From Victivallales bacterium (lineage in GTDB: Bacteria > Verrucomicrobiota > Lentisphaeria > Oligosphaerales > Oligosphaeraceae), in contig JAFXUD010000002.1 of assembly GCA_017535315.1 (NCBI GenBank), positions 248,001-312,000 of the forward strand: a stretch of 64,000 nt of DNA. Reading direction: 5' to 3'. Shown here in pieces: positions 3,542 through 49,417 of the stretch. Position numbers and translations under genes: made by a program. The notes beneath the pieces were generated by a model. It ran no database searches. It saw nothing but the letters and a program-made list of their open reading frames with translations, and was not told the DNA's origin. The first letter of the stretch is position 1. Each line of letters begins with the position of its first letter.

Positions 3542-3712
3542 TATTCAGAAGGGGGCATATTGGCATAATCCACTGGGTTTTCTGTGCCTTGCCGCTCTGC
3601 TTCGCTACACGGCACGACGCAAAGGAACTGGGGGTTTCGTCTACCCGTGGGTTTCGCTTTCGCCACCCACGGCTATGTTCTTGTCGCCGCTACGCTGCTC
3701 CCCTTCTGAATA
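3542..3712 (+). repeat. Hairpin-rich dispersed element, copy A
   Basis: A 171-bp intergenic element bounded by 13-bp terminal inverted repeats, tattcagaagggg (3542-3554) and ccccttctgaata (3700-3712). Inside are an imperfect stem around tgtgccttgccgc and cggcacgacgca, and a second stem with ccgtgggt and acccacgg. The same internal order occurs at 32205-32346, 47369-47520 (reverse orientation) and, as a 5' fragment, at 50243-50300. It has no coding capacity, so it looks like a non-autonomous, MITE-like or REP-like element. Confidence 0.75.
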
Positions 3713-9255: not shown

Positions 9256-9303
9256 TAAAGAGGTAATTTCAAAACTAGCGCATTTCGATGATAGTTTTGA
9301 AAA
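9256..9303. repeat. Hairpin repeat, copy 1 (degraded)
   Basis: Starts taaagaggtaatttcaaaac and continues tagcgcattt, matching the left arm of the 80-bp hairpin at 9541-9620. Its own right arm is shortened: ttcaaaacta (9268-9277) pairs with tagttttgaa (9292-9301). It lies on the far side of tRNA-Leu from copy 2. Confidence 0.8.
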
Positions 9304-9394: not shown

Positions 9395-9480
9395 TGGTAC
9401 CGGAAGTGGGACTTGAACCCACACGCCCTCACGGGCGCCAGATTTTGAGTCTAGTGCGTCTGCCATTCCGCCATTCCGGC
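9395..9480 (-). tRNA. tRNA-Leu (anticodon CAA)
   Basis: 86 bases including encoded CCA. The acceptor stem GCCGGAA pairs with TTCCGGT (a G-U at position 1-72). The anticodon stem CTAGA/TCTGG holds loop CTCAAAA, giving anticodon CAA, which reads UUG. A long variable arm (CGCCC gtga GGGCG) is typical of class II leucine tRNAs, and the T arm contains GGGTTCAAGTCCC. A promoter is visible at 9494-9521 and a terminator at 9338-9378. Two of the four CCGG sites seen in the window are in this gene, where stem pairing constrains them. Confidence 0.95.
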
Positions 9481-9540: not shown

Positions 9541-9620
9541 TAAAGAGGCAATTTCAAAACTAGCGCCAAATGCGCTAAGAGACGGGCGCATTTGGCGCTA
9601 GTTTTGAAATTACCTCTTTA
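9541..9620. repeat. 80-bp hairpin repeat, copy 2 (near-perfect)
   Basis: Two 35-base arms (9541-9575 and 9586-9620) are reverse complements with one mismatch, around the 10-base spacer taagagacgg. Arm ends read taaagagg. It sits between the end of the helicase gene (9657) and tRNA-Leu. Shorter matches to its outer part (gaaattacctc or gaggtaattt) occur near 32411, 56309 and 61085. It may double as terminator of the helicase transcript, although no T-run follows. Confidence 0.85.
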
Positions 9621-9656: not shown

Positions 9657-12600
9657 TTAGATTTTGCCTGATTTCCGTAAGGCTTCCAGGGCGAAGACGA
9701 GATATTTCCGTGCTTTCTGCGTAACAGTCGATAGACCGAAGAGCCTGACGGTTTCACGGAAGAGGGTTTCCTGCTCAATGGAGGCGAAATCGGTCAGGAT
9801 TTCCAGCATGGCGTTTGCCAGTTCCTCGATGGGAATCTCGTCAATGGCGCGTTTGTTCACATCGTTGTTTCCATTTGCGCGGTATTCGTGGTATTCTTCA
9901 GGAATCTGATCATTTTGCCAATAGACTTTTTCCTCCCCAAGCAGTGTGACAGGAATGTTGTTGGGAAGGCAGTCATTCAGAATGGACTGGATGTTTTTGC
10001 CCGCTTGAAGGAATTTCCATGCCCTGGTAATCCGTTTTTTCAGGAGACGTTCATAGATGGGAGCCTCCTGCTGGATGACCTGCATCATCTGCTGGCGGAT
10101 GAACAGGCGTGTCTCCAAGAGGTAGAACTCCTCTTGAGGACGCTCGCAGACGATGCTACAAGCCTCATAGTATTTTTTGGGTTTTTCAACTACGACGTTT
10201 GCACAAATTGGTTTTTCCATGACTGGCTTTGGGGAGGATGGCGGGGTAGCAGGGGGTGTAGAAGTCGCTTCCGACTTGGCCTTCTCCAGAGCATTCAGAA
10301 GCGCATTTTCAGCCTGCTTTCGGTCGAATGCCCAATCGACGCTCCAGGTCTGCCAGAGATGCCAGCCAAGGGATTTAAGCACGCTGTGTCGAATGTGGTC
10401 GCGGTCGCGTGTCGTCTTCTGTGCCGCGTATGCAGGACCGTCGCATTCGATGCCGAGCAGATAGGCGTCTTCTTTTTCAGGATGGCGCACGGCGACGTCG
10501 ATGCGGTAGCCAGAGCAACCGATGTTGCGTTCAACAACATAGCCTTTTTCCTGAAGGAATCGCGCAATTACGGCAGCGAGGTTCTCGGTTTCCGCACTGG
10601 CAGGGCGTACCGTCTGGATGTCGAATCCCTTTTCCGCATAGTCGAGGAAATACTTCAGGTGCGCGGCTCCGACGGCCATGGTGCGCGAAAGTTCAATCTG
10701 GTAGGAGTGGACGGACGAGAAGACAACCACCTGCTCCTTGGCGCGCGTGATGGCCACATTCAGGCGGCGTTCGCCGCCTTGGCGGTTCAGCGGCCCGAAG
10801 TTCATGGAGAACTTGCCTGTGCTGTCAGGCGCATAGCCGATGCTGAACAGGATGACGTCTCGCTCATCGCCCTGCACATTCTCCAGGTTTTTGACAAAGG
10901 GCGGTTCTTCGTTTTGGTCGCTGAAATAATCCTCCAGACTGGGGTGCTTGGAGCGTTCCGCCTCCAGTAGGTCTTCAATCAGGTTCTTCTGCGCCTCGCT
11001 GAAGGTCACAATGCCGATGCTACGCCTTTTATCAGAGTTGCCTTCAAGCTGCTCAAAGACGTAGCGCACGAGTGCCTCTGCTTCCTTGCGGTTGGTGCGG
11101 GTGACCCGTCTGTCATAGATGCCGTCGGGGACAAAATGGAAGCGGACACCCAGACGTTCGGAGAGGCGTGCGGCAGGGAAGGTGAAGAGCCTGTCCTCGT
11201 AGTAGTAGTGGTTGCTGAAGGCTATCAGGGATTCATGGCGGCTACGGTAGTGCCAGTTCAGGTAACTGGAGTGAACGCCTGCCGCGAGGCATTCGTCCAG
11301 GATGCTTTCCATGTCTTCCAAGTCCGTGATTTCCTCGTCGTCATCCACACTGTCGCCTTTTTGGAAGAAGTTGGTTGGCGGCATCTGCTTGGGGTCGCCG
11401 ACGACGATGAGCTGCTTGCCACGCGCGATGACGCCGATGGCGTCCCATACGGGAATCTGGGAGGCTTCGTCGAAGACAACCAGGTCAAACTGCGCGGAAT
11501 CAGCAGGCAGATACTGCGCCACAGAGAGCGGGCTCATCAGGAAACAGGGCTTGAGTGTTCCCGCAAGTGTCGGAATCTCGGAGAGCAACTGGCGGACAGG
11601 CTTCTGGCGCGTCTTCTTCTCGCATTCGCGCTTGAGCAGGCCCAGTTCGGTGCCTTCGGGGCAGGGGCCTGAACGGCGGCGCGGGAGAGTGGCGGCCAGC
11701 TTTGCGAAAACGATTTTTCGTGAGAGTTGGATGTATTTGTCGTCCAGGTCGCAGAATCGGTCGATGCGCTGCTGCTGGTTGAGACCGTTGAATTGCGAGA
11801 GCGTGTGGTTTTCGTTGAGAATTGCGTCCAGCATCCTTCTGAAATAGGCGGTGTCAAAGGCCTCGGAGGCTTGCTGGACAGGAATCAAACCATCTTCCAG
11901 GGCTTCCACGAAACCTTGGATATTGCTGGTCGCAGCCTCCTCATAGAACTTTTTATATCGCAAGAAATTACGTAGACTTTCGCGATGGTCAAAGAGTGCC
12001 TCCGTTTTTTCAGAAAGAGAGGCAAGGCTTTTTTCCTCTGCGAGCGTCTTTGCATAGTCACTTGAGAACCTTTGCATATGTTCTTGGAAGCTGTTCCAGG
12101 ACAGTAGGAAATCGTTGATGAGCTTGTGTTCAGGTGTTTCGTCTGCATAGATGGCTTTGGGCAGGTTTTCCCGACAACGCTTCAGGAGGCTTTCACGCTG
12201 TGTAGTCTCATTCCCAGTGATTTCATGTGCAAGGCCGACGATTTTCTGAGCTGCCTCGATGACAGCTTGCAAGGTTGTCCAGTCAGTGGTCTCCTCCTGC
12301 CATAAATTTCCTAGGAGTTTCTTCCCACGTTCCACCATGCCTTCGTATTTCTCGGATGTCTCATTCCACTGAGCGAAGACGGGAAGCGAACGGCTCAGTT
12401 CCTCAATGGTGAGCTTGGCGCCTCCGAGCTTCTTCAAACCAGCCAGTTCTTTTAGAAGGGCACTATTCTTGAAGGGACGCACCAGGAAGAACGCCTGGCG
12501 GTTCTGTCGGATTCGCGCTTCCAGCCCATTTGTGTCTAGCGAGCGTATCATCTCTAACTTATAGGATTTAAGCTTTTCCATCAGGCTGCGACGCTGTAGC

Positions 12601-15600
12601 GCAATCTCGCTGAGTGTGGAGAGAAACTGCGCATCCTCAATAATACTCTCCGACAGCAAGGCCTCTGGGATCGCAGGCACTGTCTTTAGCGTCTCTCCGA
12701 AGCGTGCCGTGGCATTAATCGTAGCCATCTCGTCAGATGGTTTCAGTCCGAGGTGATTGCAGAACACTGAATAAGCGCTACTCAGGGCGGAAAGCGCATC
12801 TTTAACCTCTTTGGCGGAGGTAAGCATCGTCTTTTCAAAAACGGGACTCCAATCAGCGGGGTCCAACCAGGAGAGTTTCTGGCGTGCATTGGCGTCGAGT
12901 ACCTTGAATGCGCCAGACAGATCGCTGACAAGCTGGACAACTCTCCCATATTCCTCGCGTGTCTGGGTCAGGCAGGAGATGCCGAGCAAATCATCTGGCA
13001 CTTCCTCCGCTTGCATCAGGTGTGAGAAGCATGTGTATGCAGAGAAGCCGTTGGGGTATTGGAAATGCAAGGCCCCCACATAGTCATTCAACTGTTCCCG
13101 AAGAACCTGCAAATTATTGGTAAGCTCTTGCCATTCTGCAGGTTCTTGTGTTTCAGGGACGTTGAGGGCCTCGGAGAACTGAGCTAGCACCTCGCTCTTG
13201 CCTGACTTGTTGGAGTGGAGCTCCAGACAGAACGGGCGTAGCCCCACCTGCGAAAGGCGCTTGTGAACCACATCCAACGCCGCCTTCTTTTCGGAGACGA
13301 AAAGGACGCGCCTGCCCATGGCGAGGTTTTGCGCGATGATGTTGGTGATGGTCTGGGACTTGCCTGTGCCAGGCGGTCCATGGAGGACGAAACTCTTGCC
13401 AAGCGTGGAATAGAGGACGGCAGTGAGTTGCGAGGAATCCGCGCTCATTGGACAGTAGAGTTGCTTTGGGTCAATGTGCTTCCCGATTTCATCGGGCGGG
13501 AATACTTCGATGCCATCGTCAAAGAGGCCGCCGCCCTCCATTAGGTGATTGACCAGCGGATGCTTTTTCAGGATTTCCGCGCGTGCGGTCATGTCCGTCC
13601 ACATAATGAACTTTCCGAAGGAGAACTGGCCGATGCAGGCCTCTTCGCGCACCTCCCAGCCAGGCATGTTCTTGATGGTCTGACGGATAATCTGCATCAC
13701 TAGCGCCACATCGACTCCAGACTTGTCCGTCGGCAACGGAGCCAGTCCAGGGATGGTCAGGTGGAATTGGCTGCGCAATAGCTCCAGCAGAGTTTCGTTG
13801 ATGATGGTCTCCTCGTCCAGACGGACGATTTTGATGCCCTCGACGATGGATTTCCGCACCAGACGTATGGGCACCAGCAGAATAGGAGCCAGATAGCTCT
13901 TTTCGTCACGCGGGGAGACCCTCCATTCGAGAAAGCCGATTCCTGCGAAAATGGTATTAACGCCACCTTCCTCCAAATCGGTTTTCCCCTGGCGGAAGAG
14001 CGCCGTCATACGGCGCGACATGTCATTCAGGGACAGGTTGGTGCAAAGATGCTTTTGCTTTAATTCATTGTCCAGCAGTTCCTTAAGGCTTGTCATTATT
14101 TCACTGTTGCGGAGCATGGCGAGGTCGTGGACATCCTTTTCGCCCAATTCGGCGATGATGGAGTTCAGCGTGAGGGTTTCATTGGCGGCAAGGTAGTTCT
14201 CAAGCGCCGTGATGTCAGGGCAGACCAGCGGAATGACGTACTGTGTGTTGCGGACGTTGAGCAGACGGTTGCGCAGGGAGAGGTCCAGAAGCTTTTGTGT
14301 CCAGCGTGCGATGCGCCCTGAACGGAGCTCCGTCTCCTTCAACGTTGCCAAATCAATTGCCTCTTGCAGCTTTCTCTTGTGCTCTTCGCCGAGAGCATCT
14401 ACGTTGCGTTCTGGTGGCTCGAACTCCATCCCCTCCGTGCTGTGCTTCAAGGGGAGAGGGTGGATGCCGCTGAGGCGCGCGCGCACCACGTCAATGGCGC
14501 ACTTGAAGTCCTTGTCGATGTTGAGATGCTCGGTTCTGGCGACTGCCTCTGCTTCCGAGAAGGTCCTGTTTTTGGTGGCAAGTGTGGTTTCAATGACAAC
14601 AAACTCATCCAAATCCACCAGTTTGCGGATGGTTTGGAGGTCGTCAAGTGGGAGGTTTGGGAAATAGCGGTCAAGGAGATGACAGCCGATGTAGGCGTGG
14701 CTTTCCTGTATTAAGATGACAGGGTGCAAGCCGCACTGCTCCATGACCGAGGCAAAAAGCAGGGTGGTGTCCAGGCAGGTGCCGAGGCGGAACTTGTAGA
14801 TGCTGTCGGCAAAGCGGATGCGCTGGCCTGGTGTGCCGAAGGAGGAGGGGGGATTGGAGTAGCTGATGCCCCAACTGTGGATGGCACGGTAGATGGCGGC
14901 GCAGATTTCATAGACGCGATGCCTGTCTGCCTGGTAGCCTTGGATGGAATCGGAGGCTGTTGCCTTCTTCAGCTCTTCGGCAACGATGGACAACAGGTGG
15001 TTGACGACCTCCAGATTGGGTGTCACATAAGCGCAGATGAGTTCGGGGAAGATGTTCGTGCCCAGCCACTGGTCGGCAGAAAGCGCGAGCATATCGTGTT
15101 CCTGATGCAGAAGGGTGTTTCCCTCTTGTGTGATTTCCAGGGTCATTTTCCCTTTCAGGGGTTCTGTAAGCGTGGAGAGAAGCTGGTAGTTAAGGGTGAG
15201 ACGAATGTCGTGCAGCGGCAGCTCTTCCTTTGCCTTGAGGCGCTCAATCTTGATGGTGGCTGCATCGAAGAACTCGCTCGTGGAGGCTAGGTGGCATTCC
15301 AGGTTTTCCAAATCATGGTCGGTCTGGTTGACAAGGGTAATCTCCTGGATGACGTTGATGGCGTTCTGCTCCAGGGAAAGGTTGATGGCAGGAATGTAGT
15401 TTACCTTCGCATTGAGTTCTGGTGTGCGTTTATTTTCGGTTGGCAGGGTGTCAACTGTCGGCTCCCCTCCCGTCAGCGGCGCACAGGACTGGTCGGAATC
15501 TGGCACGCCAGATGGGGTGGCCTGGCAGTCCACGGCCTGGGGTTCCGCTGCGGTGGGGTGCGACGGACAGGAGAGGTCGGTATCCTCTGCAGTGGGGTGT

Positions 15601-15650
15601 GGCGAAGAAGGCTGGCTATTGTTGTTTGGGCATTGCATCATGTGGTCCAT
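9657..15650 (-). CDS. DUF4011/DUF3320 SF1 helicase with TGase-like and Vsr-like domains
   Basis: A cytoplasmic-looking protein of 1997 residues. Order: a Pro/Ser/Thr-rich, low-complexity first 60 residues; an Ig-like beta domain (about 70-180); a transglutaminase-like domain with Cys in RLGTCLDTT (near 292) and His in SHAYIG (near 318). Next comes a DUF4011 start (WTQKLLDLSLRNRLLNVRN, near 446), then an SF1 helicase split by a long insert: Walker A GPPGTGKS near 757, Walker B VVFDEASQIP near 1390, GDPKQMPP, and motif VI-like LNVAITRAKEQ. A Vsr-like/PD-(D/E)xK nuclease has YRIDVAV and GIECDGPAY (about 1735-1790), and a DUF3320 module closes the protein. Such helicase-nucleases are often linked to DNA defence. 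The two preceding genes encode membrane proteins and the gap is 42 bases. The target is unknown. Confidence 0.85.
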   Translation of the reverse strand: MDHMMQCPNNNSQPSSPHPTAEDTDLSCPSHPTAAEPQAVDCQATPSGVPDSDQSCAPLTGGEPTVDTLPTENKRTPELNAKVNYIPAINLSLEQNAINVIQEITLVNQTDHDLENLECHLASTSEFFDAATIKIERLKAKEELPLHDIRLTLNYQLLSTLTEPLKGKMTLEITQEGNTLLHQEHDMLALSADQWLGTNIFPELICAYVTPNLEVVNHLLSIVAEELKKATASDSIQGYQADRHRVYEICAAIYRAIHSWGISYSNPPSSFGTPGQRIRFADSIYKFRLGTCLDTTLLFASVMEQCGLHPVILIQESHAYIGCHLLDRYFPNLPLDDLQTIRKLVDLDEFVVIETTLATKNRTFSEAEAVARTEHLNIDKDFKCAIDVVRARLSGIHPLPLKHSTEGMEFEPPERNVDALGEEHKRKLQEAIDLATLKETELRSGRIARWTQKLLDLSLRNRLLNVRNTQYVIPLVCPDITALENYLAANETLTLNSIIAELGEKDVHDLAMLRNSEIMTSLKELLDNELKQKHLCTNLSLNDMSRRMTALFRQGKTDLEEGGVNTIFAGIGFLEWRVSPRDEKSYLAPILLVPIRLVRKSIVEGIKIVRLDEETIINETLLELLRSQFHLTIPGLAPLPTDKSGVDVALVMQIIRQTIKNMPGWEVREEACIGQFSFGKFIMWTDMTARAEILKKHPLVNHLMEGGGLFDDGIEVFPPDEIGKHIDPKQLYCPMSADSSQLTAVLYSTLGKSFVLHGPPGTGKSQTITNIIAQNLAMGRRVLFVSEKKAALDVVHKRLSQVGLRPFCLELHSNKSGKSEVLAQFSEALNVPETQEPAEWQELTNNLQVLREQLNDYVGALHFQYPNGFSAYTCFSHLMQAEEVPDDLLGISCLTQTREEYGRVVQLVSDLSGAFKVLDANARQKLSWLDPADWSPVFEKTMLTSAKEVKDALSALSSAYSVFCNHLGLKPSDEMATINATARFGETLKTVPAIPEALLSESIIEDAQFLSTLSEIALQRRSLMEKLKSYKLEMIRSLDTNGLEARIRQNRQAFFLVRPFKNSALLKELAGLKKLGGAKLTIEELSRSLPVFAQWNETSEKYEGMVERGKKLLGNLWQEETTDWTTLQAVIEAAQKIVGLAHEITGNETTQRESLLKRCRENLPKAIYADETPEHKLINDFLLSWNSFQEHMQRFSSDYAKTLAEEKSLASLSEKTEALFDHRESLRNFLRYKKFYEEAATSNIQGFVEALEDGLIPVQQASEAFDTAYFRRMLDAILNENHTLSQFNGLNQQQRIDRFCDLDDKYIQLSRKIVFAKLAATLPRRRSGPCPEGTELGLLKRECEKKTRQKPVRQLLSEIPTLAGTLKPCFLMSPLSVAQYLPADSAQFDLVVFDEASQIPVWDAIGVIARGKQLIVVGDPKQMPPTNFFQKGDSVDDDEEITDLEDMESILDECLAAGVHSSYLNWHYRSRHESLIAFSNHYYYEDRLFTFPAARLSERLGVRFHFVPDGIYDRRVTRTNRKEAEALVRYVFEQLEGNSDKRRSIGIVTFSEAQKNLIEDLLEAERSKHPSLEDYFSDQNEEPPFVKNLENVQGDERDVILFSIGYAPDSTGKFSMNFGPLNRQGGERRLNVAITRAKEQVVVFSSVHSYQIELSRTMAVGAAHLKYFLDYAEKGFDIQTVRPASAETENLAAVIARFLQEKGYVVERNIGCSGYRIDVAVRHPEKEDAYLLGIECDGPAYAAQKTTRDRDHIRHSVLKSLGWHLWQTWSVDWAFDRKQAENALLNALEKAKSEATSTPPATPPSSPKPVMEKPICANVVVEKPKKYYEACSIVCERPQEEFYLLETRLFIRQQMMQVIQQEAPIYERLLKKRITRAWKFLQAGKNIQSILNDCLPNNIPVTLLGEEKVYWQNDQIPEEYHEYRANGNNDVNKRAIDEIPIEELANAMLEILTDFASIEQETLFRETVRLFGLSTVTQKARKYLVFALEALRKSGKI

Positions 15651-15692
15651 TATGGTGAAATAGGCTGTTCAGGGTATGGCGAATAGTGGTTT

Positions 15693-16889
15693 TCAGCGGT
15701 TCTGGTGGTGCGCCTTGATTTTCTGTATGCTGTCCTTCCCGACGATAGCGGAAATCCAGCAGATAGCGAGGTCGTCGAGCAAGCCGATGACTGGGATGGA
15801 ATCGGGAAAGGCATCGAATGGCATGATAGTCCAGACGACAGCGATGAAGGCTACTGCAATGAAGCGTGGAACGACCGTGAAGTTGGCAAGCAGACGGTTG
15901 CACTCGTAGAGTTCAGGGATAGGGTGCATGACCGTGCCGTTGATGGTGACATCCAGCGAGACAAGACGATACCCTTCCACCATCCGCCGTATGATTTCGT
16001 TCATCATCAGACGCTGTTCATCGCGGGAGTATTCGATGCGTGGAGCATAGCGGTCGCGCACAATCTGCTCGAATTCGCGACCGTTCATCTCGCCGCTCTC
16101 GTAAAGCCTCTCCATTGTGGCTATAATAACCTCAAACATGAGCGCATCGCCTGATTGACTGCCCAGGTGCTTGTGGATGTTGCATAAATAAGCTGTTTTT
16201 CCATAGGGATTCCACTGGAGCGTGACACCCGCGATAAACACCAGAACCGCCAGTAGGAAGGGCCAGTTCAGACCGTTGGCGATAGTTGTTGCAAGCATTA
16301 CCAGCAGGACAATGCACAGGATGGAGAGGCGCACGTGGGAACTGCGGAAACACAGAACCACAAGCACGGTTATCACAAGAAGGGCCAGCCACGGATGGAA
16401 GGCTAGCTCAAGAAGCCATTTGGGCAGCCATGCCTGCAAGGCTTGGGCAAGTGTCATCACGCCATTGTGTAAAGTGTCAAATACCATCTTCAGAATACCC
16501 CTGTTTTCATCGGCATTCTTGATAAGGGCGTATGGTCCGATCATGCGTGAAATCAGCAGGGAGAGCGGTGCCATCATCGCGATTTGCAGGAAGAGGTTTG
16601 GCCCGCCAGGGCGCCCTGTGAAGAGCATGGACCAGTTGAGGTCGCTGGCTATCAGGAAGGCCAGGATGAGGGGGATGATGCCCTGCAATTGGAAACTGTA
16701 GTTTGGGGAGAAAAATGGATCGCGCAGGATGATGAGCACGCTTGCAAGGTAGCAGCAGAGCACCAGCCAGAAGCGCAACGAGGCCAATGATTCCACTCCG
16801 CAGGCCGTGGTGGTCGGGGTGAAAAGGAAGTCCTGCATCGGTCTCCAAAAGAAACTGTTGCCTTTGTCTTTTTGCACAAGTTGGTTCAT
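15693..16889 (-). CDS. Multispanning membrane protein with C-terminal DUF1232
   Basis: The product has 398 residues. Hydrophobic spans are visible near 40-60, 66-84, 100-118, 165-185 and 190-225. They are followed by a roughly 100-residue soluble stretch (YESGEMNGREFEQIVRDRYA) and a C-terminal hydrophobic module reading MPFDAFPDSIPVIGLLDD. That last motif is the DUF1232 signature. The start overlaps the stop of the gene at 16886-18058 by four bases (ATGA), so the two are translationally coupled. The helicase gene starts 42 bases downstream. Function is unknown; membrane sensing or tethering for the helicase is inference from context. Confidence 0.75.
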   Translation of the reverse strand: MNQLVQKDKGNSFFWRPMQDFLFTPTTTACGVESLASLRFWLVLCCYLASVLIILRDPFFSPNYSFQLQGIIPLILAFLIASDLNWSMLFTGRPGGPNLFLQIAMMAPLSLLISRMIGPYALIKNADENRGILKMVFDTLHNGVMTLAQALQAWLPKWLLELAFHPWLALLVITVLVVLCFRSSHVRLSILCIVLLVMLATTIANGLNWPFLLAVLVFIAGVTLQWNPYGKTAYLCNIHKHLGSQSGDALMFEVIIATMERLYESGEMNGREFEQIVRDRYAPRIEYSRDEQRLMMNEIIRRMVEGYRLVSLDVTINGTVMHPIPELYECNRLLANFTVVPRFIAVAFIAVVWTIMPFDAFPDSIPVIGLLDDLAICWISAIVGKDSIQKIKAHHQNR

Positions 16890-18058
16890 TGGTGTTTTCT
16901 GGTTGGAGATAGTTTTTGTTTTTTCAATTTAATGTCGGCGATAATCTCCTGCAGGTCTTTGCTTTCCCAGTGGTTTTCTCCATTGAAATAGTATTTTTCG
17001 GGGAAGAATGGAATGGGAACCAAACCGTCAAGCACCCGTTGGGCAATGAGAAGTTGCAAATCGAGAAACGCAATATCATTTTCATGCTTTGCCGCCAGCG
17101 AATAGGCTTGTTCACGGAACTCTACGCCAGGTTCGCCCACGTCGTCGGGGAGGGTTTTGCCGCCTTCCATGCGCCACCTTGTAATCAGCACCTGGCATTC
17201 TATCAGATCCAGGGTGGTGACGGTGGTCTCGGTCAAGCGTTTTTCGGGTGGCTTGTTGGCATTCAGATTGCGAATTTTCTCGATTTTCGTTTGGGTTCTC
17301 AAACAGGTCATTCTGACTTGATAAGAACGCATTTCATTGTTCAGAACAGCCTCCACACGGTATTCTGCCTTGTGGATATTTTGGAAAGGCTGCCAATCTA
17401 GGCAGATTCTGTAGATTGACCATTCAAGGTTATCTGGGTCAAATTTGTTCGCCATGCCGAGCCATTTTCCCAATTCGGGTGCATCTTTCGGGAAGCCACT
17501 TTTCTGATGCGAGGAGAAAAAGAGGGAGGCTAGCCGTGCATTCGCACGGAAACTCTCTTGGTCCATGAAAATCGCATCCATTTTAGGGGCGATTATCTCC
17601 TTGACTTCCGCAAACCGCCCCGTGTCGTAGGCGGCGGTGGCCTGTTTGAGCAAGGCTGAATATTCGGAACTCACCTTTGACGATGTCTGCGTGTCGATGA
17701 CTAGCACATCGGAGGAATCAACGAGTTTCGGGAAACGTGGACGACAAAAATATACTAGCAACCCGATTGCCACAAAACCGACAAGAAACAGCAGCTTCAT
17801 GGCGGGTGTATAGGCGGGGCGCCGACCGTGCAGAGCCTCCAGCAGTTCTGGAAGCTCATCACGTGGGATGGCCTTTGCCAAAACATGCTCCTCGAACTCC
17901 TTGTCGGCAGGCGCAACACTTCGCGTCTCTGGCAGGAGTACCTGCCCATCCCGCACGACAAGCTCTGTGGAAGGCACATTCGACACGCGCATAGGCGTTG
18001 TCCCCTCCACAACCGCAAGGGCATCGATGGAATGGTCTTTTGGAGAGTCTTCGTTCAT
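16886..18058 (-). CDS. Single-pass membrane protein of unknown function
   Basis: The product has 390 residues. An acidic cytoplasmic N-terminal segment of about 80 residues is followed by one membrane span (MKLLFLVGFVAIGLLVYF, about 85-103). A predicted periplasmic region of nearly 290 residues follows, rich in helix-forming stretches; YDTGRFAEVKEIIAPKMD could be a TPR-like helix pair. No family is recognised. It begins 13 bases after the stop of a glycosidase gene (18072), so it may be co-transcribed with that gene. Its stop overlaps the next start by four bases. Together with the DUF1232 protein and the helicase it forms a tightly packed set. Confidence 0.7.
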   Translation of the reverse strand: MNEDSPKDHSIDALAVVEGTTPMRVSNVPSTELVVRDGQVLLPETRSVAPADKEFEEHVLAKAIPRDELPELLEALHGRRPAYTPAMKLLFLVGFVAIGLLVYFCRPRFPKLVDSSDVLVIDTQTSSKVSSEYSALLKQATAAYDTGRFAEVKEIIAPKMDAIFMDQESFRANARLASLFFSSHQKSGFPKDAPELGKWLGMANKFDPDNLEWSIYRICLDWQPFQNIHKAEYRVEAVLNNEMRSYQVRMTCLRTQTKIEKIRNLNANKPPEKRLTETTVTTLDLIECQVLITRWRMEGGKTLPDDVGEPGVEFREQAYSLAAKHENDIAFLDLQLLIAQRVLDGLVPIPFFPEKYYFNGENHWESKDLQEIIADIKLKKQKLSPTRKHQ

Positions 18059-18071
18059 TTGGATTAAGCCT

Positions 18072-20270
18072 TTATTTTTTCATGGGAATTTCAAGAACGG
18101 AATAGCGCCCGAAGGCGGTGGCGGGAACATCAATTCTCCATGCGGAATCCGCTTCACTGAACTGCGGGGTAATACGCAGCGCATCGGGGTTGTCGTAGGA
18201 ATGAAGCACAACCTCGGCGGGAACAAAACCGTCTCGCAACAGCACATTCACAGGCTTGTTGTCATTTCGTTCAGCGAATGGCTTAAAGCGGAGCGGCTGG
18301 TTCTCTGGGATGATTTCACCTGGTTCACAACCACCGTAGGAATCAAGGAAATGCAGGATTCTCGCTCCTGAATCTCCCGCGATATGTGCATTGAAGAGCA
18401 CCTTGGCTGGAAGGTTTTTCACCTCCACGGCCATCTGACCAGCCAAAAGCTTGCGCACGGTCTCGGCAAAGAGCTGACGCTGTTCGGGCAGGTAGTTGCG
18501 AATGTAGGTTGGTGTTTTCTGCGCTCCTACATGCGTCATGCCGCAGCCCCAGCGACCCGCAAACACAATGACTCGCCCCTTGCCGTAGAGACGCTCAATG
18601 ATGGCGGGAACGCCTTCTGTTGTCGTGGCAAGAATGGTTGTACCAGCGGTTGGCTGAATGCGCTCCATGCCGTCGATGAAAACATAGGTGCCTGCTGGCA
18701 GGCTTTTGCCTTCGACAACCTGAACCTCAATTCGTCCATCCAGCTTCTCGCCCCTGGATGCAAGGCCGAGAAAAGCGTTCAGCTCATCCTGCGCCATTGG
18801 AGCCTCCGTGAACGGATCTGCCATTCTGCATGGTCCAGAGACAAGCAGGATGCCACCACGCTCCACAAACTCCTTCAGTCTGGCCAGCATTTGTGGCGAG
18901 ACATAGTCGTTGGAGGGCATTACGACTAGTTTGAGGTTGGCTGGCAATTCCTTCGCGAAGCTACCGCGAACAAGTTGTGACGCAGGGATGTTGTGCCACG
19001 CCAGTGCCTCGCCGAAGCCTCCCCAATCGCTGATGATGCGTTCCGCTTCCTCTGGTTCCGAGAAGTCACGGCTCTGCTCGGGGAAAAAGATGCCGATGTC
19101 GTTGCGTTCGCGCGGTTTGACGAATAGCTTTTCATGGGCGGCTTCCCACTTGAACAGCTCACCCTCCATCTGGTAGTCGCGCATCTCATAGCGAAAGCCC
19201 ATGGAAAGGCTCAGCGCCCACAGGTAGAACTGCTCCGAGTTCTCGCGCTTCCAAGTGGAGGGGTATCCGATGCAATAGCAGCACTTCCAGTTGTAGTTTG
19301 CTGCATGCGCTTGGTAGAGTGCCATCTCACGCACATAGCGAGGAAACTCCGTGCAGGACATGAAGCCGCAGCGCTTCCCTTTCGGATGCCCTGCCTCCTC
19401 CATCTCGTAGAAGCCCATCGTCCAGTTTCGCAGCCAGTTTTCCGCCCCCATCGCCCACACGCGGCGATAGTACTTGGAGATGCCCGCCAGGCATCCTGTT
19501 ATCTGCATATCGGGGTTGGCCTGGCGCAGACTTGACAGCAATGCACCGTAGAAGTCGCCGCCTGAATCAAAACGGAACGACACATAGCGGCGCCAATGCA
19601 CGTCGCTGGTATCCACTTTTCCTGTCGGCATCTCCTCTCCATATTTCTGACGATAGACGGCACGAGAGCCCTCCTTTGTGCCACAGGCGTAGATATCTGG
19701 TAGCCACTCCACCTCATCAGTCTGGAAGCCGTCAACGCCCGTTTTCTGCGCGTATTCGGTCATGCGCCCAAAGAGGAAGCTGCGGAAGCCAGGGTGGTTC
19801 ATATCCATAAAACAGGCTGTTGCGTATGCATTGTTCGGTGCACAAAGGGCAGGTTCCCCTGTGTTCAGGTTCTCGCTTACCCATGGCCTATACTGCGAGT
19901 TTTCCATCGCTTCAATTCGCGTGAAGGTACTGGTCGTGTGGTGGATCAGCCTGAAGCCTGCCTTTTTGACCGCTTGCGAAAAAGGCACCGCCAGATCGTA
20001 GTTGACCTGCGACTGCCACTGGGACTTCATGTTGTCTGGAAGCCCAGGCAAGTACTGCATCCCACCATGGTCAACGATGGTGTTGACCCCGCATTCCTTC
20101 AGTTCGGCGAGGCATTTTTCCAATGCCTCCCCCTGCAACTTTGTGCCAATGCGCAAGGAGACGATGCGGGCATTCTGCTCCCAATCCATCGCATCTTCCT
20201 TGTTTGGTTTCGATTCCTGAGCAAACATGGTCACCGCCATCGTCATCAGCAATATCGCAGTCTTCTTCAT
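18072..20270 (-). CDS. Secreted GH42-like glycosidase
   Basis: The product has 732 residues from ATG 20270, chosen because the signal peptide MKKTAILLMTMAVTMFAQ starts there; an upstream in-frame ATG adds an implausible N-terminus. The first 400 residues look like a TIM barrel, with VNTIVDHGGMQYLPGL and GVDGFQTDEVEWLPD (near 190), where an acidic pair follows a beta strand. Residues about 440-560 (LVVMPSNDYVSPQMLARLKE then GGILLVSGP) resemble the glutamine-amidotransferase-like trimerisation domain of GH42 and related enzymes. A beta domain ends the protein. It lies 16 bases downstream of another glycosidase gene, in one operon. Substrate is not inferable. Confidence 0.65.
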   Translation of the reverse strand: MKKTAILLMTMAVTMFAQESKPNKEDAMDWEQNARIVSLRIGTKLQGEALEKCLAELKECGVNTIVDHGGMQYLPGLPDNMKSQWQSQVNYDLAVPFSQAVKKAGFRLIHHTTSTFTRIEAMENSQYRPWVSENLNTGEPALCAPNNAYATACFMDMNHPGFRSFLFGRMTEYAQKTGVDGFQTDEVEWLPDIYACGTKEGSRAVYRQKYGEEMPTGKVDTSDVHWRRYVSFRFDSGGDFYGALLSSLRQANPDMQITGCLAGISKYYRRVWAMGAENWLRNWTMGFYEMEEAGHPKGKRCGFMSCTEFPRYVREMALYQAHAANYNWKCCYCIGYPSTWKRENSEQFYLWALSLSMGFRYEMRDYQMEGELFKWEAAHEKLFVKPRERNDIGIFFPEQSRDFSEPEEAERIISDWGGFGEALAWHNIPASQLVRGSFAKELPANLKLVVMPSNDYVSPQMLARLKEFVERGGILLVSGPCRMADPFTEAPMAQDELNAFLGLASRGEKLDGRIEVQVVEGKSLPAGTYVFIDGMERIQPTAGTTILATTTEGVPAIIERLYGKGRVIVFAGRWGCGMTHVGAQKTPTYIRNYLPEQRQLFAETVRKLLAGQMAVEVKNLPAKVLFNAHIAGDSGARILHFLDSYGGCEPGEIIPENQPLRFKPFAERNDNKPVNVLLRDGFVPAEVVLHSYDNPDALRITPQFSEADSAWRIDVPATAFGRYSVLEIPMKK

Positions 20271-20286
20271 GGTGTTTTCTTGTTGC

Positions 20287-22209
20287 TTATGGTACCAACT
20301 TGACAAACGCGGGTTCAAAGCCTGCCAGCTTCAGCGTGAAGCTGTTGCTCTTCAGCGTAGGCGCAGGGCCGAACTCGGCAGTTGCTTTTGTGGCGGTTGC
20401 GCCGACGGTCACCTCGACCTCGACAGGCTTGTCATTGCCGTTTACAACCAGCACATAGTCCGCGCCGTTGTAGTGCCAGGTGCGCGTATCAATCTTTTCG
20501 GCATTGACGCTGACCGTAGGCGCGGGCTCGACGGAGAGCAGCACGGGTATCTGCTTTTTCACCATCTCGCCAGCTTCGCACACCTCCGCCCAGGCCTCCT
20601 CGAACGGCACTCCGTTGGCGGGCTTTTTGAGGTCGTAGTAGGAGTAGGGGATGAGGCCGTTGGCACCGTTGGCGATGCAGAGCCAGAACATGCACTTGAT
20701 TTCGGCAAGTGTCGGCTTGCGGCAGCCGATGGCGGCAGGACCTTTGCGGTAGCAAGCCCAGTTGAAAATCTGGGGCACCTGCCATACGGCGTAGTGCTTG
20801 AAGGCACCGTCGCGGGTCATGCGCGTCCAGCGCGCCGCCTCGTAGGCGCCCTTGCCAGGGATGGGATAGGGATCTGTCCCGATGATGTCGAAGGAGTTGA
20901 GGTATTCGCTTATCTGCGTATATTGGTAGAGGACGACCCACGTCGGGTGGTCAGGATCGAGCTTCTCCATCAAATCCCGCCTGGCAACGAGCTTGTCAAT
21001 CATGCTAAGAGGAAGTTCGTCGTTGATGTACCATGCGATGAGCGCAGGATGCTTCGCAAAGTCCTTGACCCTCTTTTCAATGAAATTCACGGCGTCCTCG
21101 TCGGTGTTGATGCTTTTGGGGCACCATTTGGTGCCTGGGTAGGCATCCTTGATGGAGTAGATGATTTTGAGGCCGTTCTCGCTGATTTTGTCCATTCCCT
21201 CGATGTTTCCAGGAGGCCCGTATGCCATGATGCAGTTGAAGGGCGATGCGCCGATGACCTTCAAGTCCGCCTCGGCGGCGTTGGAGACGTAGAGCCCCAG
21301 CGGGAAGAAAGGCTGGCCATCGGCAATCAGCCGCTTGTATTCGTCGATATAGCAACGGCCATAATCAAGTTTTGCGGCCTTTGTGAAAGTGCGTTGCGCG
21401 CTGCCCTTCTTGCTCTTGCACTCGAAGTTTGCCTTCACGGTATATTTCCCTGCGAGAAGTGGTGCAATGTCGAGCTTTGCCGTGCATTGGGTCAGCTCAA
21501 TGCCTTCCGCCTTTTGCGTAAGCACGGTTTTGCCAGCGGCATCGACAATCTCGAATTGCCCTGAAACATCTTTAGGCTCAATGCGCAGGGGACGGAGGTT
21601 CAGTGCAACGGTGATCTCAAGTTCCTTGCCGTCCGTGATGCCGCGATAAGGCGCGACGGAAATCGGCCCCACCAGCTCTGGCTGGAACAGACGGCAGTAT
21701 GGACGGTCGAACCAAGCCTTGCCGACCATCCCCTTGCGGGCATAGAGGGCAAAACGCGCGGTGTTCACGCCTTCTGGCACTTGTCCTGACCTCATATGAA
21801 TGAGCGTCCAATTCGGGGTGTTTCCCTTTTTGCCGCTTGGGTAGTCGCCGCCGCGGAACTTCCCGTCCTTGTCGTACCACTCCAGGCAGACGGTGGCTCC
21901 GCTGTCTTCGCCAGTCATGTTTTCTGTCTTCACGTAGGTGCCAAAGACAAAAATATCGCCAGGACGGCAGTTGATGTTCTGAACACAGAGATGGTAGGTT
22001 TCAGGGCTCTTGTTCTCAAACGCCAGACAGTTGCCATTCTCTCCACCGTTAATCAAAACGCTGAAATTGGACCCCATCACCCACCCCGCAGGCTTCCCAT
22101 TCCCCTCGAATTGGCTGAAGTCGTGGTTCGCAATGAGATTGTCGTCTGCATATAAGAAACTTATACAGACCAAGAAAAAGATTGTTAAAGCAGAATGATG
22201 TTTTAACAC
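20287..22209 (-). CDS. Secreted CBM plus TIM-barrel glycosidase (GH2/GH5-like)
   Basis: The product has 640 residues with a GTG start at 22209, supported by AAGGAGG six bases upstream and a signal peptide (LTIFFLVCISFLYA). Residues about 20-180 form a carbohydrate-binding jelly roll (NLIANHDFSQFEGNGKPAGW). An Ig-like linker follows, then a TIM barrel from about 285, with LIADGQPFFPLGLY at its start and HPALIAWYINDELP near 395. That acidic residue matches the acid/base Glu of clan GH-A enzymes. The protein at 53030-55552 has the same barrel motifs, so the two are distant paralogues. The next gene starts 16 bases downstream. Confidence 0.65.
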   Translation of the reverse strand: MLKHHSALTIFFLVCISFLYADDNLIANHDFSQFEGNGKPAGWVMGSNFSVLINGGENGNCLAFENKSPETYHLCVQNINCRPGDIFVFGTYVKTENMTGEDSGATVCLEWYDKDGKFRGGDYPSGKKGNTPNWTLIHMRSGQVPEGVNTARFALYARKGMVGKAWFDRPYCRLFQPELVGPISVAPYRGITDGKELEITVALNLRPLRIEPKDVSGQFEIVDAAGKTVLTQKAEGIELTQCTAKLDIAPLLAGKYTVKANFECKSKKGSAQRTFTKAAKLDYGRCYIDEYKRLIADGQPFFPLGLYVSNAAEADLKVIGASPFNCIMAYGPPGNIEGMDKISENGLKIIYSIKDAYPGTKWCPKSINTDEDAVNFIEKRVKDFAKHPALIAWYINDELPLSMIDKLVARRDLMEKLDPDHPTWVVLYQYTQISEYLNSFDIIGTDPYPIPGKGAYEAARWTRMTRDGAFKHYAVWQVPQIFNWACYRKGPAAIGCRKPTLAEIKCMFWLCIANGANGLIPYSYYDLKKPANGVPFEEAWAEVCEAGEMVKKQIPVLLSVEPAPTVSVNAEKIDTRTWHYNGADYVLVVNGNDKPVEVEVTVGATATKATAEFGPAPTLKSNSFTLKLAGFEPAFVKLVP

Positions 22210-39821: not shown

Positions 39822-40811
39822 ATGATTGACGTAAAGCAGATTGGTGCGAAGGTCTCTGAGGAGAGCTCGCTGTTGGTGCGTGTGCGCGCGGAGATGGCGC
39901 GTGTGATTGTGGGGCAGGAGGCGTTGATAGACCGCCTATTGATGGCGTTGCTGTGCAACAACCACGTGCTGATCGAGGGATTGCCTGGTCTGGCGAAGAC
40001 CCTGACCGTCACCACGCTTGCGCGTTGCCTGGATGCCACTTACCACCGCATCCAGTTCACGCCCGATCTGCTGCCCGCCGATGTGGTCGGCACGATGATA
40101 TACAACCCGAAGACAGGTGATTTCAGCACAAAGAAAGGGCCGATTTTTGCGAATATCATCTTGGCTGATGAAATCAACCGTGCTCCCGCCAAGGTGCAGA
40201 GTGCTCTGCTGGAGGCGATGCAGGAGCGTCAGGTGACCGTGGGCGACAGCACCTTCAAGCTGGACGATCCTTTCCTGGTGCTTGCCACCCAGAATCCCGT
40301 TGAACAGGAAGGCACCTATCCGTTGCCTGAGGCGCAGGTTGACCGCTTCATGTTCAAGGTCAAGGTCGAATATCCTGAAAAGGATTCAGAGCTGAAGATA
40401 TTGCGCCGTATGGCCTCCTCTGCGCCAGCGCTCCAGGTTAACTCCGTGCTGAAGCCCACCGATGTGAAGCGGCTGCGTGAACTGACAGATAGCATCTTTA
40501 TGGACGAGAAGATTGAATCCTACATCGTGGATTTGGTGGATGCATCCCGCCATCCCGACCAGTACGGTCTGAAGGATATCCAGGAACTGATACGCTACGG
40601 TGCTTCGCCACGCGCCACCATTTTCCTGGCGATGGCCTCGAAGGCGCAGGCGTTTGTCGAAGGGCGCCCCTACGTGACGCCGCAGGATGTGAAGTCCGTC
40701 GCAAAGGATGTGCTGCGTCACCGAATCATGGTCACCTACGAGGCGGAGGCCGAGGAGATCAGCTCCGAGCAGATTGTACAAAAAATTCTGGACACGGTGA
40801 AGGTGCCATGA
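39822..40811 (+). CDS. moxR: MoxR-family AAA+ ATPase
   Basis: The product has 329 residues; GGAGA lies six bases ahead of the start. It is an AAA_3-type ATPase with Walker A GLPGLAKT near 53-60, Walker B ILADEINRAP near 113, sensor 1 in VLATQNPVEQEGTYPLPEAQ, and a winged C-terminal lid with GASPRATIFLAMASKA. MoxR proteins act with VWA-domain partners as chaperone-like remodelling complexes. Here it begins the Bat operon and overlaps the DUF58 gene by four bases, the arrangement seen in Bacteroides aerotolerance (Bat) loci. Cytoplasmic. Confidence 0.95.
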   Translation: MIDVKQIGAKVSEESSLLVRVRAEMARVIVGQEALIDRLLMALLCNNHVLIEGLPGLAKTLTVTTLARCLDATYHRIQFTPDLLPADVVGTMIYNPKTGDFSTKKGPIFANIILADEINRAPAKVQSALLEAMQERQVTVGDSTFKLDDPFLVLATQNPVEQEGTYPLPEAQVDRFMFKVKVEYPEKDSELKILRRMASSAPALQVNSVLKPTDVKRLRELTDSIFMDEKIESYIVDLVDASRHPDQYGLKDIQELIRYGASPRATIFLAMASKAQAFVEGRPYVTPQDVKSVAKDVLRHRIMVTYEAEAEEISSEQIVQKILDTVKVP

Positions 40812-41683
40812 TTCCGAAAGAGTTGGCGAAGAAGATTCGCTACATACAGATTTACACCAGTAAGACGGTCAACGACGTCCTTGCGGGCGAGTACCAGAGT
40901 GCTTTCAAAGGTTCTGGCATGGAGTTCGACGAGGTGCGCGAGTACCAGCCTGGTGACGAAGTGCGCTCCATCGACTGGAACGTGACCGCACGCCAAGGGC
41001 ATCCCTACGTCAAGCGCTTCCATGAGGAGCGCGAATTGACGGTGATGTTCATGGTTGATTTGTCCGCCTCGGGCATGTTTGGAACGGGGACGCAGACAAA
41101 GAGCGAACTGGCGGCAGAGCTGTGCGCGCTGCTCTCCTTTTCTGCTGTGAAAAGCAACGACAAGGTGGGGCTCATCATGTTCACGGACCGCATCGAGCGG
41201 TTCATTCCGCCCGCGAAGGGGGTCAGCTATGCGCTGCGCATCATCCGCGAGGTGATGGGACACAGGCCCGAAGGGCGCAACACGGACATCCCTGGTGCGC
41301 TGGACTACCTCGGCAAGGTCATCCGCAAGCGGTGCGTCGTCTTCATGGTTTCGGACTTCCAGGGCGGCGAGTTTGCCAAGTCCATGCGCGTGCTTGCGCG
41401 CCGCCATGATTTGATTGCAGTGAGCGTGGCAGACCGCCGCGAATTGCAGTTGCCCGATGTGGGATTGTTGGAACTGGAGGATGCCGAGACAGGCGAGCTT
41501 GTGATGGTCGATACCTCCAGCCTTGCCATTCGCGGCGAATATGGCAAGCTTGGGACGGATGAGCACGCCCAATTGAAGGGTCTCTTCCGCTCCATGGGAG
41601 TGGATTTGCTGGAGTTGATGACAGGCGAGGACTACGCGCGGAAACTCGTGCAGTTCTTCCGACACCGTGAAAAGGCACGATAA
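40808..41683 (+). CDS. DUF58 protein
   Basis: The product has 291 residues with the DUF58 signature EYQPGDEVRSIDWNVTAR near 50-67. A VWA-like domain follows, starting FMVDLSASGMFGTG, whose DxSxS metal site is intact, and then CVVFMVSDFQGGEF. DUF58 proteins are the usual direct partners of MoxR ATPases. The start overlaps moxR by four bases. No membrane span is present, so it probably stays on the cytoplasmic side. The next gene follows after 19 bases. Confidence 0.92.
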   Translation: MIPKELAKKIRYIQIYTSKTVNDVLAGEYQSAFKGSGMEFDEVREYQPGDEVRSIDWNVTARQGHPYVKRFHEERELTVMFMVDLSASGMFGTGTQTKSELAAELCALLSFSAVKSNDKVGLIMFTDRIERFIPPAKGVSYALRIIREVMGHRPEGRNTDIPGALDYLGKVIRKRCVVFMVSDFQGGEFAKSMRVLARRHDLIAVSVADRRELQLPDVGLLELEDAETGELVMVDTSSLAIRGEYGKLGTDEHAQLKGLFRSMGVDLLELMTGEDYARKLVQFFRHREKAR

Positions 41684-41702
41684 GTAATAAGGAGACTTAA
41701 TA

Positions 41703-43121
41703 ATGGCGGATAGCGATTTTGATTTCAGTTTACCAAAAGCAAGCGAAAAAGCGACTGACAGCAGCAAGTGGAAGCTGATATGCGTGCTTCAGTTGCTGAC
41801 GCTTGTCTGCGTGCTGCTTGCCTTCTTTGGGATGCGTCGCGGTACGGCGGCATCTTCTGGGGCTTCTGTCGGCGATGCAGAGAAGTTGCTGGAGTTAGCC
41901 CAGCGGCTTGAGAAGCAGGGGCTGGCAAAGGAGGCGACGGAGGCGTGGAAGGAGTACATGCGTGCATCGAATCCCGATGCCGAGAAGGAGGCGAAACTTT
42001 GGTACCGTATTGCCACCATTCAGCAGGATGGAAAACTCTATGAAGAGGCGTTGGCTTCCTTTTATCGCTCTGACATGGCGATGAAGGTTCCCGTGCTGGA
42101 GACGGAGATTACACGGCGCACCCAGGAGTGCCTTGCCGCTCTTGGCAAGGCCGTCGCCATGAAGCGCAATTTGGAGGAGCGCACCACGGCAGGTGCTTCG
42201 GTTCAAAATGCGGCGCCGTTGGTGGCCATTGGCGAGTGGAAGCTGACGCGCGAAGATGTGGAGGCCATGGCCGAGAAGGAAATCGACATGATGATCGCCA
42301 ACAGCGGAATGCCTGACGACAAGAAACTGGAGCAGAAGAAACAGATGCTGAAGCAACTGAACCAGGGCGAGGGGCTGATGCAGTTTGCCATGCAGGTGGT
42401 TTCGCAGGAGTTGCTCTATCGAGCTGCGCTTGAGGAGAAGCTGATGGATGACGCAACTGTCCGCGAGGATGTGATGCGGCGTGAGCGCGGGGCACTGGCC
42501 GAGGCGTATATGCGTCGGCGCCTTTCCAGCATTGAGGTTTCCGACACGGAAATCAATGATTTTTACAAGGCGCATCCTGAGCAGTTCACCGATTTGGCGG
42601 CTGTGCAGTTGGCTCACATCGAATTTGCAGATGAAGAGAGTGCAAAGGCGGCGATGAAGTCCCTGGTCGAGAAGCAAGATTTTGCCGAGCTGGCGAAACT
42701 GCTCTCCCAGGACAAGGCGACAGCCGATAAGGGGGGCTTGATGAACGGCTGGTTCACTGCCGCAAGCGGCTTGGAGTGGACCCGCGAGGCCGCAAAAGCC
42801 TTCTTGGCTGACGAGAAGCTGGCAAAGGGAGCACTTCTGCCAACCGTTATCAAGGGCGGCAAGACGTGGCATATCGTGAAATTGCTGGAGAAGCGTGCGG
42901 AGAAAGTGCAGGACATCAAGGACCAGAAGGTCTTTGAGAATGCGCGGAACATGTTGTTGGACCGTAAATCCCATGAGGCGCAAAACAGGGTCATGCAGGA
43001 ACTGGCACAGCGTTACCGCGTTGCCTGGAATCTGAACAGTGGGAAAGAAGATGCGAACACCGCGTCGGACTCCGCCGTGCCAGAACCCAAGTACAATCCA
43101 CCGAATGGAGGCGTTAAGTGA
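41703..43121 (+). CDS. Membrane-anchored PpiC-type peptidyl-prolyl isomerase
   Basis: The product has 472 residues, with AAGGAGA ahead of ATG 41703. A cytoplasmic tail of about 22 residues precedes one membrane span (LICVLQLLTLVCVLLAFFGM). A TPR-like helical stretch (LELAQRLEKQGLAKEATEAW) comes next, then a SurA/PrsA-like foldase: a helical chaperone part with KEIDMMIANSGMPDDKK and a parvulin domain with AAVQLAHIEFADEE, LSQDKATADKGGLMNGWF and GGKTWHIVKLLEK. It should fold secreted proteins in the periplasm. Its place inside a Bat operon, between DUF58 and the BatA region, is unusual and suggests service to the Bat complex. Confidence 0.85.
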   Translation: MADSDFDFSLPKASEKATDSSKWKLICVLQLLTLVCVLLAFFGMRRGTAASSGASVGDAEKLLELAQRLEKQGLAKEATEAWKEYMRASNPDAEKEAKLWYRIATIQQDGKLYEEALASFYRSDMAMKVPVLETEITRRTQECLAALGKAVAMKRNLEERTTAGASVQNAAPLVAIGEWKLTREDVEAMAEKEIDMMIANSGMPDDKKLEQKKQMLKQLNQGEGLMQFAMQVVSQELLYRAALEEKLMDDATVREDVMRRERGALAEAYMRRRLSSIEVSDTEINDFYKAHPEQFTDLAAVQLAHIEFADEESAKAAMKSLVEKQDFAELAKLLSQDKATADKGGLMNGWFTAASGLEWTREAAKAFLADEKLAKGALLPTVIKGGKTWHIVKLLEKRAEKVQDIKDQKVFENARNMLLDRKSHEAQNRVMQELAQRYRVAWNLNSGKEDANTASDSAVPEPKYNPPNGGVK

Positions 43122-44140
43122 GGTTCCTGGAAACCATAACCGCTCTTTTTCTGGTTGCGTTCCTTTTACTTGGATGTCACAGGCAGAATGCTGCCACAGG
43201 CAAGGCGGATACGACCGCCCAGGCTGCTGAAAAACTGGAGCCGACTCCCTATTCCAAGGAGTTTGAGAGCGGTCCCCTGAAAATACGCCTGGCCCTCGAC
43301 AGGACGCATCTGCGGCTGGACGAGGTGATTCAGTTGGAACTGGAGGTGTGGGCGCCAGAGGAGTATTCCGTTGAACTACCCAAGTTGGAAAGCGGGCTGG
43401 AGCAGTTTCGCTGGGAGCCAGTCTCCCTCTCCACGCCTGAACTTCAGGATGGGGGGCTTCTTCACTATTCGCGCAAAATCCTGCTGGAACCGCTGCTGAT
43501 TGTCGATAAGACAGCCGTGAGGCCGATGGAAGTGAAGTTTGCCGCAGCGGACAAAGCTGGTGGTGAGACAAAGCACTATGCTCTTTCGACAGACGAAGTG
43601 GAAATCACCGTCGAGATGCCGCCAGAGGAGTACTGGAACAACTTGACGGTTGATACGGCCTTGTCGGAGAAGCCAGTCGAGCAACTGGAGAGGAAGGTAC
43701 GGTGGTGGCCGTGTGCAGTCGCTGGCGGTCTGCTTCTGGTGGTTTTGCTGGTCATCGTGTTGTTGCGTCGTAGGCGCGTCAAGGCAGTGGAGCTACCGCC
43801 GCCGATTCCGCCGCAGGATATTGCCTTGGAGGAGCTTCGCCGCCTTGTGGAGGCGCATCTCGTAGAGCAGGGGGACTTCATGGGGTTCTACAACGCCATC
43901 CAGGGGATTCTGCGGCGCTACATTGAGGCGCGGTTTGACATCCACGCGCCTGAGCGTACTACAGAGGAGTTTCTCGATGAACTGCGCGGCAGCCGCTCCC
44001 CCATCGGAAAGCACCAGAAGCTGCTGGAGAGATTCCTCACGCACTGCGATTTGGTGCGCTTTGCGAAGCATACCCCCGAAAAACAGGAGATTCAGGCGAC
44101 CTTTGACGCCTGCAAGCAGTTTATCATAGAGAATCAATGA
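43118..44140 (+). CDS. DUF4381-like lipoprotein of the Bat operon
   Basis: The product has 340 residues with a GTG start overlapping the previous stop (GTGA) and GGAGG six bases upstream. The N-terminus has a lipobox, FLLLGC with Cys20, so it is probably acylated. A beta domain of about 150 residues (LRLDEVIQLELEVWAPEEY) precedes one membrane span (CAVAGGLLLVVLLVIVLLRR) and a helical tail (LRRLVEAHLVEQGDFMGFYN). The tail matches the DUF4381-type protein commonly found between DUF58 and the VWA genes of Bat loci. A lipoprotein with a second span is uncommon. Confidence 0.75.
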   Translation: MRFLETITALFLVAFLLLGCHRQNAATGKADTTAQAAEKLEPTPYSKEFESGPLKIRLALDRTHLRLDEVIQLELEVWAPEEYSVELPKLESGLEQFRWEPVSLSTPELQDGGLLHYSRKILLEPLLIVDKTAVRPMEVKFAAADKAGGETKHYALSTDEVEITVEMPPEEYWNNLTVDTALSEKPVEQLERKVRWWPCAVAGGLLLVVLLVIVLLRRRRVKAVELPPPIPPQDIALEELRRLVEAHLVEQGDFMGFYNAIQGILRRYIEARFDIHAPERTTEEFLDELRGSRSPIGKHQKLLERFLTHCDLVRFAKHTPEKQEIQATFDACKQFIIENQ

Positions 44141-47368: not shown

Positions 47369-47520
47369 GTCGTTAGGAGCCGCGTTAGCGGCGACAGGAA
47401 CATAGCCGTGGGTGAAGCGAAGCGCCGTAGGCGCGAAGCGAAACCCACGGTCAAGATACACTTAAGTTCGTTTGCGCCGTGCCGCGAAGCATAGCGAAGC
47501 GGCAGGGCGCAGATGTGAGC
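47369..47520 (-). repeat. Hairpin-rich dispersed element, copy C
   Basis: In the reverse orientation to copies A and B. Stem 1: tgcgccgtgccgc (47473-47485) with gcggcagggcgca (47499-47511), one mismatch. Stem 2: ccgtgggt (47406-47413) with acccacgg (47443-47450), enclosing gcgcc/ggcgc. The end reads as copy A does (ctatgttcctgtcgccgct on the minus strand). It separates the two copies of the batC 3' end. Confidence 0.8.
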
Positions 47521-47577
47521 GAAGGAGCGCGAGCAAGGCGAAAAACGTAACTACCGTGCCGTCCCGATGGACTGGTA
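47521..47577 (+). pseudogene. Duplicate of the last 19 codons of batC
   Basis: 55 of 57 bases match 47311-47367 at a constant offset of 210 bases. The only differences are third-position changes, GCT to GCC and GTT to GTC, so both copies encode KEREQGEKRNYRAVPMDW, ending TAG in batC and TAA here. In-frame stops in the intervening element prevent readthrough. There is no start codon of its own; it is a relic or the original gene end displaced by the element. Confidence 0.85.
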
Positions 47578-47602
47578 ACTTGATTTGGAAATACGCATTA
47601 TA

Positions 47603-49405: not shown

Positions 49406-49417
49406 AGAGGGATGAAT

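Follow-up and report, generated by a model that had tools for sequence, protein, structure and literature searches.

A predicted ProA-family helicase-nuclease gene lies downstream of a probably unrelated envelope gene pair in a Victivallales bacterium

Three closely spaced genes in a Victivallales genome encode two membrane proteins, here termed UP and MEM, and a predicted giant helicase-nuclease. Do they constitute a new three-gene defence system, as the initial annotation had proposed, or is the giant a defence protein in its own right that happens to have membrane neighbours? We addressed this question in the 64,000-nucleotide stretch of DNA that carries them (the window), in which the following features are relevant.

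18072-20318, minus strand: glycosidase-like gene (Pfam Glyco_hydro_42M), directly upstream of UP
16886-18058, minus strand: UP, 390 amino acids (ORF call)
15693-16889, minus strand: MEM, 398 amino acids (ORF call)
9657-15650, minus strand: ProA-family giant, 1997 amino acids (ORF call)
9541-9620, no strand assigned: palindromic dispersed repeat of 35 bp, directly downstream of the giant

The UP and MEM ORFs share a 4-base overlap, and 42 bases separate MEM from the giant. Both values, the shared minus-strand orientation and the domains attributed to the three proteins in the initial annotation were confirmed by ORF calls and Pfam, and the ORF positions likewise agree with its statement that the set begins 13 bases after a glycosidase gene. 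Nearby genes encode a carbohydrate-binding protein and glycosidases, and a MoxR/BatD-type operon is also present. A scan of 31 further main ORFs of the window gave no match to a PADLOC model at a cut-off of 1e-5. The locus is not a defence island, and the glycosidase-like gene at 18072-20318 is not a component of any defence unit. Consensus scans returned promoter-like and terminator-like sites at roughly chance frequency only. Elsewhere in the window, the region 39822-50227 apparently contains genes for MoxR-type AAA, DUF58, VWA, TPR and BatD proteins and resembles a Bat/MoxR operon, as read from a tally of matches without positions. The same kind of tally records one match to the TMEM43 family (Pfam PF07787) without naming the ORF, of which 56568-57884 is the likely carrier.

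Several repeats accompany these genes. The arms of the 35-bp palindrome are 97% complementary, with a DNA-fold z-score of -13.4. Across the 4.9-Mb genome, 27 copies of its core were counted, as opposed to 0 in a reversed control; the palindrome is therefore a dispersed REP- or MITE-like repeat. A half copy lies at 9256-9281, just past a tRNA-Leu gene (9395-9480). The two arms of a 29-bp inverted repeat (3664-3692 and 47386-47414; 97% complementary), situated 44 kb apart, possibly represent another dispersed family, and positions 319-500 hold a tandem array of the 14-nt unit GGGTAGGTCTGCTA.

The giant is composed of the following regions.

Residues 1 to about 85: N-terminal low-complexity tail
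Residues about 90-400: transglutaminase-like region, recognized by conserved motifs and uncalled by Pfam
Residues 453-625: DUF4011 (Pfam)
Residues 736-1650: SF1 helicase, AAA_11 and AAA_12 halves (Pfam)
Residues 1695-1788: Vsr-like nuclease MTES_1575 (Pfam)
Residues 1842-1889: DUF3320/wHTH (Pfam)

An alignment of 21 sequences, namely the giant and 20 relatives from the same phylum, indicated conservation of the transglutaminase-like Cys motif (CLD; GTCLD at 290 in the giant) and His motif (HA; at 318), as well as of the nuclease motifs RIDVAV, IECDG and RDRDxxR and of the helicase motifs. The catalytic motifs of the giant itself are intact, both in the helicase (GPPGTGKSQT at 758, VFDEAS at 1392, GDPKQMPPT at 1418, QGDERDVI at 1593 and NVAITRA at 1631) and in the nuclease (YRIDVAV at 1715, GIECDG at 1733 and RDRDHIR at 1748). 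Against NF058533, an NCBIfam equivalog named "anti-phage protein ProA" with a curated cut-off of 1500 bits, the giant scored 1951.7 bits, and the alignment of its residues 90-1974 spans positions 1-1902 of the 1903 in the profile. The PADLOC candidate defence family PDC-S37 gave 1264 bits, and a search of solved structures returned only helicases of the UPF1, SEN1 and SMUBP-2 types. The order of domains, transglutaminase-like, DUF4011, SF1 helicase, Vsr nuclease and DUF3320, is that of ProA. By profile match, we thus assign the giant to ProA, an anti-phage family of stand-alone proteins that already has a name. Matching NF058533 in full length and above the cut-off, it is very probably an anti-mobile-element protein. 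The initial annotation was accordingly right to suspect a defence protein, and the family membership supports it there; the new three-component system that it proposed is unsupported (see below). No paper explaining how the family came to be called ProA turned up in the literature that was searched.

In the phylum, ProA is patchy, exceeding the cut-off in 21 of 195 genomes. Neighbour clustering of 20 ProA loci revealed no recurrent partner gene, and inspection of over 20 further ProA loci revealed UP and MEM beside none of them. Some loci have McrBC in the vicinity, others an integrase together with a D12 DNA methylase, or a recombinase accompanied by macro-domain and PD-(D/E)XK genes. Relatives at about 36% identity are present on Proteobacterial plasmids, where they sit among transposases, toxin-antitoxin genes and a restriction endonuclease, again without membrane partners. 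ProA behaves as a stand-alone gene.

What, then, are UP and MEM? According to hydropathy and an AlphaFold model (mean pLDDT 79), UP has one membrane helix at residues 85-104 and a large all-helical soluble domain. UP had no Pfam match and fell into no database family; in the model its soluble domain is probably TPR-like, a label to be taken loosely. Because the charge bias leans only slightly to N-in, the placement of this large domain outside the cytoplasm is no more than probable. MEM has many membrane helices (hydropathy and AlphaFold, mean pLDDT 80), a soluble insert at residues 245-325 that weakly resembles a winged helix in the model, and a C-terminal DUF1232 at residues 344-377 (Pfam). 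A Foldseek comparison of the UP and MEM models with the PDB gave no significant match for either protein.

Outside the window, UP is located immediately 5' of MEM on the same strand in 25 of the 26 loci tabulated, and at the remaining locus the contig edge falls within the gene upstream. Full-length relatives of MEM paired in this way with a UP relative were found in the phylum sample, in the host family, in a genome collection that includes Victivallis vadensis, in distant Verrucomicrobia and on one Desulfatirhabdium contig; examples are L099:8914-11810, L192, L197 and L105. ProA was absent from about 25 other UP-MEM loci, a single congener (G195, see below) excepted. An EI24/CysZ-like gene adjoins the pair in 10 of these loci, and none was detected in the genome of the window. 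UP-MEM is an independent, widely conserved envelope pair. Because a third membrane protein of the EI24/CysZ type is often encoded alongside, UP and MEM probably form a membrane complex, which we infer to act in envelope upkeep or transport.

The distributions of the pair and of ProA can be compared directly. Of the host-family genomes, 12 have the pair and 16 lack it; taking E below 1e-50 as presence, ProA is found in 6 of the former and 9 of the latter (Fisher p = 1.0), and there is thus no association between the two. In the phylum sample, it is found in 2 of 10 genomes that have the pair and in 18 of 184 that lack it (Fisher p = 0.28). Six genomes contain both on different contigs (G070, G165, G197, G214, G216 and G218), a separation that rests partly on fragmented metagenome assemblies.

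Within genus g1, to which the window belongs, the picture is different from that elsewhere. Adjacency could be assessed in one other member, G195, whose contig L191 carries the glycosidase gene, UP and MEM in the order of the window. On this contig, 50 bases past MEM, there is an ATG whose reading frame resembles the beginning of ProA in the window, and the remainder of ProA is carried by contig L190. A local repeat (GCGCGGCGGAAACCCAGGCCGTGGAC), found only on L190 and L191, is situated at both ends of L191 and before ProA on L190. The N-terminal tail of the G195 ProA is made of this repeat region, and the tail of the ProA of the window resembles it. On L190, ProA is joined directly to a 640-aa gene. 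We do not take this junction as the native arrangement; it is more readily explained by a jump of the assembly from one copy of the local repeat to another, because the contig with the glycosidase gene, UP and MEM has this repeat at either end. The contig ends are most simply explained if G195 has the order glycosidase-UP-MEM-ProA and the assembly jumps at the repeat. Within the genus, and at about 80% nucleotide identity, the adjacency of UP, MEM and ProA has thus probably been kept; beyond the genus it has not. In the third member of the genus, G196 (78% complete), neither the pair nor ProA was found; the downstream gene is present there with different neighbours, and the genome therefore provides no clean empty site.

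How do these observations bear on the possible explanations? In a three-component defence system, the pair would sense infection at the envelope or anchor ProA, and ProA would cut phage DNA. The tight spacing and common direction of the genes speak for such a system, as do the defence-family membership of ProA and the order that seems to be kept in the sole assessable congener. Yet the pair lacks ProA in about 25 loci, ProA lacks the pair everywhere else examined, and it is EI24, rather than ProA, that recurs as a third partner beside the pair. Because the pair and ProA occur apart and are statistically unassociated, a three-component system is unsupported, and we consider it very unlikely. 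The initial annotation had looked to conservation of the three-gene order across genomes for support, and had regarded membrane genes without the helicase as evidence to the contrary; the order was seen only in genus g1, in the window and by inference in G195, and co-occurrence came out against a new system, genus-level adjacency excepted. A narrower version, in which ProA was recruited into the UP-MEM transcription unit in genus g1 and the pair localizes or triggers the giant as a membrane-coupled variant, appears to us of similarly low probability, and any genus-specific functional link between the pair and ProA is unlikely. Alternatively, the glycosidases, UP, MEM and ProA could form one polysaccharide-use operon, with the giant serving in housekeeping DNA repair and not in defence. 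The initial annotation had itself cautioned that the set might belong to a metabolic gene run, which fits the glycosidase-rich surroundings; the carbohydrate-binding genes nearby, the lack of any other defence-model match within 64 kb and the glycosidase-UP-MEM order kept in the congener point the same way. However, a patchy distribution, relatives on plasmids or in some genomes beside a recombinase, McrBC, DNA methylase or integrase, and the anti-phage name given to NF058533 by NCBI are at odds with housekeeping, and we regard this explanation as very improbable.

By far the most plausible explanation, in our judgement, is that an intact ProA of the stand-alone family lies downstream of a functionally unrelated envelope pair, inside a run of glycosidase genes. 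UP, with its single anchor and helical domain, and the polytopic DUF1232 protein MEM would then be an independent two-gene envelope module, and its contiguity with ProA a local arrangement of one genus. As suggested by its domain families, the SF1 helicase of ProA would most likely translocate on invading or damaged DNA, which the Vsr-like nuclease may cut; the wHTH (DUF3320) part may help in DNA binding, and the transglutaminase-like part could be a regulatory or a second effector peptidase. One candidate new defence system is thereby struck off, and the giant is filed under a named family. As a by-product, we describe an uncharacterised conserved membrane module (UP, MEM and often EI24) of Lentisphaeria, Verrucomicrobia and others, which merits study as an envelope complex.

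Compared with known families, MEM has a C-terminal DUF1232 but a far longer polytopic part than DUF1232 alone, and the EI24/CysZ family is represented by genes that often adjoin the UP-MEM pair in other genomes. Giants of the MTES_1575 type were described in 2013 as combining transglutaminase, SF1 helicase, Vsr REase and wHTH parts fused to HEPN, and methylation-independent defence was proposed for them, with the wHTH domains recognising DNA (Anantharaman et al., PMC3710099). The giant described here has the transglutaminase, helicase, Vsr and wHTH parts in common with them, whereas no HEPN was detected in it by Pfam. DUF4011 has also been recorded at a Pseudomonas hotspot in the literature. 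With Hhe, a DUF4011 anti-phage protein (NF042953), the giant has the helicase/nuclease half in common; we rejected membership in this family because the score of 820.8 bits is far under its 2000-bit cut-off. From ProA (NF058533), the giant differs by a low-complexity N-terminal tail of about 85 residues and, in genus g1, by the adjoining membrane pair, but it is like ProA in its full-length match, its domain order and its intact motifs.
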